Under the pieces are notes generated by a model. That model did not search any database. It was not told the DNA's origin and worked only from the letters and a program-made list of their open reading frames with translations. A stretch of DNA of 46,081 nt, from the NCBI GenBank assembly GCA_039802205.1, contig JBDRWD010000015.1, forward strand, positions 1 through 46,081. The letters are read 5' to 3'. The DNA comes from a candidate division WOR-3 bacterium (GTDB lineage Bacteria > Hydrothermota > Tepidihabitantia > SM23-42 > JAOAFX01). Below, in pieces: positions 18,090 through 21,234 of the stretch; positions within the stretch are counted from its first letter, which is position 1; each line of letters starts with the position of its first letter. Both the position numbers and the translations under genes were made by a program.

Positions 18090-18485
18090 ATGAGAAAACT
18101 ATCAAGGGATGAGGATTTTATTTTGAGAATCCAGGAAATAAGTCAACAGAATATTGCTGATTGTTATCAATGTGGACGGTGCACTGCTGGTTGCCCATTC
18201 GCTGAGTTCATGGATGAACCACCTAACCGGATAATCAGGTATCTTCAATTAGGTTTAAAGGATGAGGTGCTTAAGGCACAAGGTCCATGGTTTTGTGCTG
18301 CTTGTTTGGTTTGCGAGACGCGGTGTCCCCGCGGTGTTGATATCCCGAGGATAATGGAGGCTGTGAGGACGATACATCTCCGTTCGAAAGAACAACTTCT
18401 GGACATTGACCGTATTGATAAGAAAATCTTAGAGGAGGCTCATCCGCTTGTTTTGATGAGTGCCCTCTACAAATATTCCTACTGA
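18090..18485 (+). CDS. hdrC: HdrC-like iron-sulfur protein
   Basis: 131 residues. Two 4Fe-4S sites: CYQCGRCTAGCP near residue 25 and CAACLVCETRCPRG near residue 69, the spacing of heterodisulfide reductase subunit C. HdrC relays electrons to HdrB. No HdrA flavoprotein is adjacent, so the electron donor is unknown. Two bases separate its stop codon from the hdrB start. Confidence 0.88.
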   Translation: MRKLSRDEDFILRIQEISQQNIADCYQCGRCTAGCPFAEFMDEPPNRIIRYLQLGLKDEVLKAQGPWFCAACLVCETRCPRGVDIPRIMEAVRTIHLRSKEQLLDIDRIDKKILEEAHPLVLMSALYKYSY

Positions 18486-18487
18486 CC

Positions 18488-19351
18488 ATGAAGGTCACCT
18501 ACTATCCGGGCTGTGATTTATATACCAAGGCGAAAATCCTTAACGACTCAATTATTAAGACATTCAGGGCGGTAGGTATTGAATTAGTAGAGCTGGCAAA
18601 CTGGTATTGCTGTGGAACAACATTTACCTTGGCCCGCGATAATAAGATGTCTTTGATCGCCCCCTTAAGGATTCTTGCAAAAGTCCGTCAAACTAATGGA
18701 TCTGTGTTAGTTCCTTGTTCCATTTGTTTTAACACCCTCAAGCGCGCTAATTTTATCTTTAAACAGGACCCTGAGACACTAAAGATACTTAACGAGCATC
18801 TGGGTGAGAATTATGATGCCCAGGCAGAAATAATCCATCCTTTTCAATTTATTTTTGAGCATAAAGATGATTTCAGAAAAGGGGTTAAACGACAGCTTGA
18901 GAATCTCAAGTTAGGCTGTTACTACGGATGCTATCTTTTGAGACCTCAGGAGGAGCTGGAATTTGACGATCCTGAAGCACCAACAATAATGGAGGATTTC
19001 GTGCACTTGATCGGAGCCCGGCCAATAAGCTTCCCACTCAAGGTTGAATGCTGTGGTTCCTATCTCATTGTCAATTCGCCCGAGGCCGCGCTGGAGGCTT
19101 CTTATAGAATTCTGAAGAATGCTCGGGAAAACGGAGTTGATGCACTGGTGACATCGTGTCCTGTTTGTCATTATAATCTTGACAATTTCCAGACCCGCAT
19201 TACGAATCTCCACCCGGACCATCAACCAATTCCGGTATTCTATTTCAGCCAAGTAATGGCGATGGCTTTTGGATTACCGGTGGAGGATTGGGGGCTGGAA
19301 TATAATAAGGTTTCACCAAAAAAATTATTAGAGGAAAAAAAGATACTATGA
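18488..19351 (+). CDS. hdrB: HdrB-like protein with two CCG domains
   Basis: 287 residues. Two Cys-rich CCG domains: GCDLY...WYCCG...PCSICF in the first half, and GCYYGC...ECCGSY...SCPVCHYNLD in the second. In HdrB these hold noncubane 4Fe-4S clusters that reduce disulfides. Substrate here is unknown; in non-methanogens such proteins occur with many partners. It overlaps rpsF by 4 nt (ATGA), which couples a redox gene to a ribosomal protein gene. Confidence 0.88.
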   Translation: MKVTYYPGCDLYTKAKILNDSIIKTFRAVGIELVELANWYCCGTTFTLARDNKMSLIAPLRILAKVRQTNGSVLVPCSICFNTLKRANFIFKQDPETLKILNEHLGENYDAQAEIIHPFQFIFEHKDDFRKGVKRQLENLKLGCYYGCYLLRPQEELEFDDPEAPTIMEDFVHLIGARPISFPLKVECCGSYLIVNSPEAALEASYRILKNARENGVDALVTSCPVCHYNLDNFQTRITNLHPDHQPIPVFYFSQVMAMAFGLPVEDWGLEYNKVSPKKLLEEKKIL

Positions 19352-19641
19352 GAAACTACGAAGCAATGTTTATATTCCATCCTAAATTGAAGGAGGAAGA
19401 ATTGGCGAGAGAAGCCGGTGCCGTGGAGACGCTTATAAAAGAAAGCGGTGCTGGAACAATCCGATACCAATTGCTGGGAAAGAAGGTGCTGGCTTATCCG
19501 GTGGAGAAGCAGAAAGAAGGTTTTTATGTCAATTACGAATTTTCAATAGCTCCGGATAAGATCACAGAGATAAGGGATAAATTAAAACACAAGGAGAATA
19601 TCCTGAGGTTTATGATCATCGTAAAGGAGAAAAGGAAATGA
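19348..19641 (+). CDS. rpsF: 30S ribosomal protein S6
   Basis: 97 residues. Starts RNYEAMFIFHPKLKEEE and contains GKKVLAYPVEKQKEGFYVNYEF, typical S6. It forms a heterodimer with S18 on the platform. It overlaps hdrB upstream and ssb downstream by 4 nt each. Confidence 0.96.
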   Translation: MRNYEAMFIFHPKLKEEELAREAGAVETLIKESGAGTIRYQLLGKKVLAYPVEKQKEGFYVNYEFSIAPDKITEIRDKLKHKENILRFMIIVKEKRK

Positions 19642-20075
19642 ATCAGTTGCGGTTAGGTTATCTTAATTCGGTTTATCTCATCGGTCGGCTTGTTGCAGAT
19701 CCGGAACTCCGCTATACCCAAAAAGGTGCTCCGGTGTGTTCTTTTCGAGTGGCTACGACCCGCCGGTTTAAAAATCGTGAGTCGGGAGAGACACACGAGG
19801 AGACTCTTTATGTGACGATTGTCGCCTGGCGTCGGCAGGCAGAACTTGTTAACGAGTTTTTGAAAAAGGGAAGCGCGGTGTTGATTGAAGGGAGGTTGCG
19901 TTCGCGACAATGGGAAACTGACAATAAAGAAAAGAGATCGGTGGTGGAAGTGGTGGCACACCGTGTCCAGTTTTTGGATGTTCCGGAGCCGGGAAGTGAA
20001 TCGAGCGGCGGTGCACCGATTGAAGCCGAAGAAGAAGTTAAAGAGGATGAGGAAGGTATTGATACACCTTTTTAA
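19638..20075 (+). CDS. ssb: Single-stranded DNA-binding protein
   Basis: 145 residues. The OB fold covers about residues 8-112 (NSVYLIGRLVADPELRYTQKG, then LIEGRLRSRQW). An acidic linker leads to a C-terminal DTPF, a variant of the DDIPF-type tip that recruits partners. The order rpsF-ssb-rpsR-rplI is common in bacteria. Confidence 0.96.
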   Translation: MNQLRLGYLNSVYLIGRLVADPELRYTQKGAPVCSFRVATTRRFKNRESGETHEETLYVTIVAWRRQAELVNEFLKKGSAVLIEGRLRSRQWETDNKEKRSVVEVVAHRVQFLDVPEPGSESSGGAPIEAEEEVKEDEEGIDTPF

Positions 20076-20100
20076 TTATTAACAGAAAAGGAGTAGACTG

Positions 20101-20304
20101 GTGGCTAAGAAATGTCGTTTATGTGAAACCAATGTTAAGGTGATTGATTACAAAGATACGGCATTATTAAAAGGGTACATCAATGAACGCGGTAAAATTC
20201 TTGCCGCGCGTCTCACGGGTCTCTGCGCCAAACACCAGCGGAAACTCGCGCAGGCAATAAAAAGGGCCCGGGAGATTGCTCTGCTTCCTTACGAAATAAA
20301 ATAG
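20101..20304 (+). CDS. rpsR: 30S ribosomal protein S18
   Basis: 67 residues with a GTG start after AAAAGGAG. CRLCETN near the N-terminus and [23 protein letters not shown] at the C-terminus identify S18. The Cys-X2-Cys...Cys...His set suggests the zinc-binding form. Confidence 0.96.
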
Positions 20305-20311
20305 TTCAACC

Positions 20312-20764
20312 ATGAAAGTAATCCTTACCAAGGATGTTCCACGTTTGGGCAAAAAGGATGAAATTTTAGAAGTGAAAGATGGTTATGCACGTAATTATCT
20401 TTTTCCCAACAAACTAGCGATTCCCGCGACGCCCGGTAATATCCGAGGGTTAGAGAAAAACAAACAACGCTTCTCGCAGGGGATGGCAAAAATTAGGAAA
20501 CTCAGTGAAGAGATTGCGGAAAAACTAAATAATCTTTCCCTGAAGACAACGATAAAAACTGGAATTGATGGGAAATCTTTTGGGGCGATCAGCTCTTTGG
20601 ATATTGTAGAATTACTGAAGGCAGAGAACATCGAAATTGATAAGAAACAGATTGTTTTAGAGGAACCGATAAAACATCCGGGGGTGTACGATATCACGGT
20701 ACGTCTTCCCCAACAGGTTACCGCCGTATTCAAACTGGTGGTGGTAGAGGAGGAAAAATCTTAG
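20312..20764 (+). CDS. rplI: 50S ribosomal protein L9
   Basis: 150 residues, standard length. The N-terminal domain [32 protein letters not shown] is followed by a connecting helix and a C-terminal RNA-binding domain. Its last codons contain the AGGAGG site of the next gene, and the two genes appear to overlap by 7 nt. Confidence 0.97.
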
Positions 20765-21234
20765 AAGTCTTTGTTAGTGGGGTCGTTGAAGACCAGCAGG
20801 TTCATACCTATGTGGTATTATTGAAGGAGAAATACGGCGAACGCACACTGCCCATATGGATTGGCGATAATGAGGCGATGGCTATTGCAATGTTTTTGGA
20901 AGGTTATAAACCACCCCGACCTCTTACCCATGATTTGATGAAAACCCTACTTGACGCCCTGGAGAGTAAAATCGTTAAGGTGGTTATCAACGATCTGAAG
21001 GATGAAACTTATTATGCTCGGATATATATTGAGAGTGACGGTAAGTTGATTTCGATAGATGCGCGTCCGTCTGATTCGATAGCCCTGGCACTTCGGGCTA
21101 ATGCCACGATTTTTGTGGCGGATGAGATAATGGCACGGAATGGAATTGTATTTAAGGATGATGCCTCAAATTCACTCAAAGATAAGTTACGAGATACAAA
21201 ACCTGAAGAATTTGGTAAATACGAGATTAAATAA
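20758..21234 (+). CDS. DUF151 bifunctional nuclease-family protein, apparent AUC start
   Basis: 158 residues if read from ATC at 20758. Conserved block [20 protein letters not shown], then [17 protein letters not shown] and [21 protein letters not shown] mark DUF151. The first in-frame ATG/GTG/TTG is GTG at 20812, which would remove the first beta strands ([19 protein letters not shown]). Upstream the frame is open and family-like, and an AGGAGG lies 4 nt before ATC. Family function is poorly settled: some members were reported as nucleases. A base error cannot be excluded. Confidence 0.8.

Follow-up and report, generated by a model that had tools for sequence, protein, structure and literature searches.

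Where does translation of the DUF151 gene behind rplI begin? In the window, i.e. the whole stretch of 46,081 nucleotides that was analysed, rplI (ribosomal protein L9) occupies positions 20312 to 20764 of the plus strand (ORF list; Pfam PF01281, E 3.4e-25; PF03948, E 1.5e-22). The operon preceding it consists of rpsF, ssb and rpsR (19348 to 20304, plus strand; ORF list, names from translations). A heterodisulfide-reductase-like pair, also named from translations, is located immediately 5' of rpsF at 18090 to 19351. The DUF151 or bifunctional-nuclease-domain (BFN) gene, bfn, is present as a single copy in the genome. Counted from an ATC codon it extends from 20758 to 21234 on the plus strand and encodes 158 amino acids. 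Its match to the PF02577 profile (E 2.5e-41) reached 140.5 bits against a curated cut-off of 27, which assigns it to the family. The nearest in-frame stop on the 5' side stands 40 codons ahead of the TTA codon at the head of the gene; from there up to a GTG at 20812 to 20814 (plus strand; ORF list) the frame contains no ATG, GTG or TTG. The first-pass annotation had described this open frame and had proposed an AUC start upstream of the GTG; its coordinates are exact in the sequence.

The region at about 20745 to 20769 reads TAGAGGAGGAAAAATCTTAGAAGTC. The 3' end of rplI is GAG GAG GAA AAA TCT TAG with the stop codon TAG at 20762 to 20764. The DUF151 frame opens ATC TTA GAA GTC TTT GTT AGT and continues to 21234. 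Its Shine-Dalgarno (SD) sequence, AGGAGG at 20748 to 20753 (plus strand), is contained within the last codons of rplI and is followed by an AAAA spacer (20754 to 20757) and the ATC at 20758 to 20760 (plus strand), taken as initiator codon from the homologous column in relatives. As had been noted at first pass, ATC thus stands 4 nt past AGGAGG and overlaps the rplI stop by 7 nt (ATCTTAG, 20758 to 20764, plus strand).

The protein sequence upstream of the GTG carries family features. Homology to DUF151 proteins, said in the first-pass annotation to begin before 20812, reached residue 2. In an alignment of 11 proteins from the order and three from outgroups, E3, V4, V6, V9 and Q14 were invariant, as was the core DARPSDS; all five N-terminal residues precede the GTG, which would be residue 19. 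For the PDB relatives 1sj5 (E 7e-26) and 1vjl (E 9e-26), both Thermotoga maritima TM0160, the alignment begins at residue 6 of the AUC-started protein. An AlphaFold2 model of this protein, computed from an alignment with 18 relatives, had a mean pLDDT of 83.9 (95 for residues 1 to 10) and a strand at E2-12. According to the model a start at GTG 20812 would delete the first strand and the beginning of the second.

Next we consider the start column in relatives. It was located by tblastn in the 27 genomes of the order, 24 of which contain the gene (G005, G021 and G025 gave no match and were left out of the counts). AUH, i.e. AUU, AUC or AUA, with no usable canonical start was found at 23 of the 24 loci (14 ATT, 8 ATC, 1 ATA), spanning 12 of 13 genera. 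The exception is genome G003, with an ATG one codon further on and about 150 nt behind rplI. In all 24 loci rplI is directly 5' of DUF151. At the 23 AUH loci the distance from the rplI stop to the AUH codon was -7 (four loci), 0 (12) or +1 nt (seven), a proximity expected for termination-reinitiation. In 12 of them an in-frame stop stands directly before the AUH codon, and in only three does a canonical codon follow the upstream stop before AUH is reached. The first canonical codon follows 3 to 59 codons past AUH at positions that are not conserved; at four loci (L020, L021, L023, L026) a GTG 3 to 5 codons past AUH could serve as a start. In 23/23 the SD match comprised at least 4 nt and stood 3 to 9 nt before AUH, with six matching bases in 15.

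When homologues outside the order were checked for ATG at the same column, as proposed together with the AUC start, 25 of 26 class outgroups had ATG, GTG or TTG exactly there and the remaining one an ATG one codon later; rplI was upstream in all 26. (The start was inspected in 26 of the 34 class genomes with a match; the other eight were left out.) In other groups, the second-residue column was preceded by a canonical codon in frame at 79 of 80 loci (the best 80 of 582 matches), in a few cases at a large distance; the remaining one had an ATG one codon after this column. A base-call error is very unlikely because two congeners with 89% and 82% protein identity share the ATC. Canonical codons in the outgroups at a column that is AUH in the order support the AUC start. 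Taken together, the sequence comparisons make AUC 20758 a well supported start site.

Is this start a singular case? We scanned 1,597,320 bp of the 2,653,883 bp genome (1188 closed genes) for non-canonical codons which, together with their SD sequence, outscored every canonical start in codon usage plus SD. One version of the scan admitted AUH, CTG, ACG and AAG, later versions any codon. The eight best cases of an any-codon version, with a margin over 3, were manC (ATT), aspS (ATT), yceD (ATA), comEC (ATT), DUF151 (ATC), prfB, a GAA and a GCA codon. Hence AUH accounted for five of the eight compared with 9.1% of coding codons. The known frameshift of prfB acts as a positive control. This gene (L149, contig C7, about 32634, minus strand) retains the classical RF2 frameshift motif (AAGGAGTATCTTTGAC). 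In the GAA case (C32:19624) and the GCA case (C12:30016) coding signal extends well to the 5' side of the first canonical start, and no AUH codon qualifies; frame errors or recoding may be the reason. Two further cases were dismissed, a Sua5-like gene attributed to a downstream GTG and ssb, attributed to its overlap with rpsF. The first version of the scan also found infC, whose SD is poorer in this genome. In a scan independent of SD sequences, coding signal preceded the first canonical codon in 14 of 1189 genes, and the five AUH genes named above were again among them. In a 400 kb sample of G009 (353 closed genes) the only AUH cases were manC and infC, each placed one codon off. The identities of aspS (NF001750, 730 bits) and comEC (TIGR00360, 100.5 bits) were over the respective cut-offs, and yceD matched PF02620 with 79.7 bits. 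The best match of manC, TIGR01479 with 287 bits, was below the cut-off of 373; therefore 'manC' denotes a mannose-1-phosphate guanylyltransferase-like protein.

These starts recur throughout the order. aspS, which in this genome starts with ATT (L286, C35:2693, minus strand; start-column reading), had a match in 27/27 genomes. Of 26 loci read (a fragment in G025 was left out) 25 were AUH (14 ATC, 8 ATT, 3 ATA); the sole other was an ATG in G003. The manC-like gene, with ATT behind AAAGGAGGTAAGAA in this genome (L145, C5:21645, minus strand; start-column reading), occurred in 23/27 genomes with 22 ATT and one TTG (G003). infC was AUH at 24/24 loci (22 ATT, 2 ATC) in 24 of the 27 genomes. yceD was found in 19/27 genomes with 18 ATA and one ATG (G009); a second yceD-type match in G005 (L259) was left out of the count. 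comEC, present in 11/27, was AUH in nine. Of the other two, that of G021 has a disturbed frame and that of G010 (L270) may start with GUU: its start column holds GTT, an in-frame TGA stands six codons before it, and the stretch between them lacks canonical codons. The comparison with class outgroups covered three of the six genes, bfn, manC and infC. A canonical codon at the manC column or at most 8 codons before it was present at all 30 loci read (33 of 34 genomes had a match, one had none, and in three of the 33 no locus was read). The sequences thus point to a set of weak starts, infC, bfn, aspS, manC, yceD and comEC, conserved across the order.

Is AUG actively avoided? A midpoint-rooted tree built from four proteins places G003 as the sister of the window's genus, and its ATG starts therefore look derived. 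By parsimony bfn underwent at least six and aspS at least eight third-base changes between T, C and A (at least 14 together); there was one change to G. A binomial calculation on a hand-made tally of 20 changes, two of them to G, gave P = 0.018. The third-base changes are modest evidence that AUG is actively avoided, suggestive and not strong.

Each of the six genes has a stop close upstream. The distances in this genome are -7 nt (DUF151), -5 (infC and manC), -4 (yceD), +11 (aspS) and +12 nt (comEC), so that aspS and comEC do not overlap the stop. Thus 6/6 AUH genes lie within -7 to +12 nt, compared with 338 of 1011 ATG genes within -12 to +15 nt; the probability of six out of six is 0.0014, if the genes are independent. 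In manC and infC the sequence is ATTAA, where the last base of AUU doubles as the T of the upstream TAA; for manC this partly dictates the AUU. The yceD overlap, ATAA or ATAG, is of the ATGA type with A in place of G, and in G009 it is ATGA. For bfn, aspS, manC, infC and yceD each AUH start has an SD match of at least four bases in the preceding 22 nt; two of the aspS matches are at an unusual distance.

How might an AUH codon be read? The sequence of the initiator tRNA looks ordinary, with unpaired first and last acceptor positions, a GGG/CCC stem and a CAU anticodon. A whole-genome search with the pattern GGGCTNNNAACCC, which a tRNA lacking that exact stem would escape, gave eight matches and no initiator-type tRNA with an anticodon other than CAU. 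Two matches have CAT, and ARAGORN identifies one of these as tRNA-Met; among the remaining six it predicts a tRNA-Arg and a tRNA-SeC. This pattern search together with ARAGORN yielded no altered initiator tRNA reading AUH. With a predicted tRNA-SeC gene (L383, C45), selenocysteine may be in use in this organism. IF3 is known to check the third base of the start codon (PMC10158994), and a damaged IF3 was considered as a cause of the AUH starts. The IF3 proteins of the order, counted from the AUH codon, have their full length of 171 to 180 residues; a few of their residues are typical of the order, and a clear lesion was not seen. The linker of IF3 from the outlier G003 is much like that of other members. 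An RNA switch was dismissed likewise: the window segment around the DUF151 start folded no better than shuffled sequences (z -0.19), and therefore no structural switch is seen.

We propose, with a probability of roughly 75%, that DUF151 is initiated at AUC 20758 by a weak, L9-coupled, IF3-sensitive and low-yield start and that the order uses the same device in six genes. AGGAGG in the end of rplI would set AUC into the ribosomal P site. Most of these ribosomes would just have finished L9, while others would bind to the rplI end via AGGAGG. Given an ordinary initiator tRNA with CAU, the codon would be read by the usual fMet-tRNA with a third-base mismatch, and this mismatch would render initiation weak. 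We infer coupling to rplI, IF3 control and a DUF151 yield far below that of L9 from the same mRNA; IF3 sensitivity is suggested by analogy with infC, pcnB and sigR. The device would have been retained order-wide in infC, bfn, aspS, manC, yceD and comEC. Plant DUF151 homologues are described as unspecific nucleases acting on DNA and RNA (PMC7249048). By analogy a putative nuclease activity of the bacterial protein would explain why little of it is wanted. The first-pass annotation had also hinted at an infC-like autoregulation. In its favour, infC itself starts with AUU or AUC in the order and shares with DUF151 an AUH codon behind a strong SD within an operon. The product of infC regulates its own gene, whereas DUF151 is not IF3, and 'autoregulated' does not apply to it; IF3 sensitivity would be the fitting form of the idea.

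Two explanations dispense with the AUC start altogether. DUF151 might be translated from GTG 20812, the first canonical codon and the one which standard ORF callers report, with the upstream homology being coincidental or vestigial. This is very improbable considering the invariant residues, the confidently predicted first strand (pLDDT about 95) and the TM0160 alignment, all of which begin before the GTG, and the variable positions of the first canonical codon in relatives. Even less credence is due to DUF151 as an L9 fusion by programmed frameshifting or stop readthrough. A -1 slip on AAA close to the SD would indeed join the two frames in the window, and in 12 of 23 relatives only a stop separates them. 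Yet a fusion would require a constant frame relation or else different mechanisms at one site; with three relations (-7, 0 and +1) at 23 loci in one order a common readthrough or frameshift product is excluded. Furthermore, rplI and DUF151 of the outgroups are separate genes with canonical starts.

More weight must be given to the possibility that the AUH starts are real and were kept by drift or stop overlap with no regulatory role, because behind a strong SD and a terminating ribosome the codon might be nearly neutral. The stops adjoining all six genes, the stop overlaps of manC AUU and yceD AUA and the order's IF3, in which no clear change was seen, agree with neutrality; the returns to ATG in G003 (bfn, aspS) and G009 (yceD) indicate that reversion is possible. 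On the other hand ATG, by far the commonest canonical start of this genome (996 of 1161), has not become the rule in these genes, which keep non-AUG starts across wide divergence; aspS and comEC have no stop overlap here, and infC is one of the set. According to PMC5622118, selection for AUG can otherwise be detected on a genome-wide scale. We consider neutrality unlikely. The initiation at AUC by a weak, L9-coupled start could also be part of something larger: an IF3-titrated translational regulon of at least six operon-internal genes with stop-coupled AUH starts, the output of which would rise jointly when IF3 per ribosome falls. Members would be infC, bfn/DUF151, aspS, manC, yceD and comEC, several of them linked to translation or ribosome assembly. 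Were this tentative and rather doubtful extension correct, it would tie IF3 supply to tRNA charging, rRNA handling, sugar-nucleotide supply and a nuclease.

Single genes with AUH starts are known. The start of infC is ATT in E. coli and ATC in Streptomyces (PMC5472188) and AUA in S. aureus (PMC13009471); proposed lepA cases are among the other examples. In E. coli, raised IF3 represses non-canonical starts and lowers reinitiation, as reported in PMC2268962. The AUU of E. coli pcnB limits an RNA-acting enzyme (Binns and Masters 2002, as cited in PMC1780047), yet this is one gene. PMC5472188 describes the GTC start of Streptomyces sigR as repressed by IF3, which sets sigR output; 32 of 34 species have GTC and two GTT. 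Like DUF151, sigR combines a non-canonical start with a AGGAGGTG SD conserved over many species, and its start sets the stoichiometry between cotranscribed genes. In contrast to DUF151 the codon is GTC or GTT, the product a sigma factor, and the case concerns a single gene of a single genus. S. aureus ccpN (AUA) and cvfC1 (AUU) have conserved starts, strong extended SDs and lowered initiation (PMC13009471). These are two genes plus infC, and coupling to stops is not described in the accessible text of that report. ATGA and TGATG overlaps are discussed as termination-reinitiation in PMC6728339. DUF151 similarly overlaps an upstream stop, and ATAA or ATAG of yceD is ATGA with the G replaced, but the start codon is non-canonical.

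In full-text literature, with subscription papers thinly covered, no report was found of an order-wide AUH set or of AUH starts in bfn or aspS. PMC5622118 lists one switch to AUU among 61,358 reconstructed ancestral AUG starts. Starts outside AUG, GUG and UUG are treated as isolated curiosities; here one order keeps at least six, the essential gene aspS included. The set, with the reversions in G003 and G009, offers natural replicates for asking whether IF3-sensitive starts are selected. It also bears on annotation. Start tables limited to ATG, GTG and TTG shorten these proteins in this genome, much as the missed AUU start of Borrelia pncA, a single plasmid gene, led to a truncated database annotation (PMC13398362). 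With canonical starts only, the first strand of DUF151 is missing, aspS is 67 codons too short, and manC lacks about 90 codons including the GGQGER loop.
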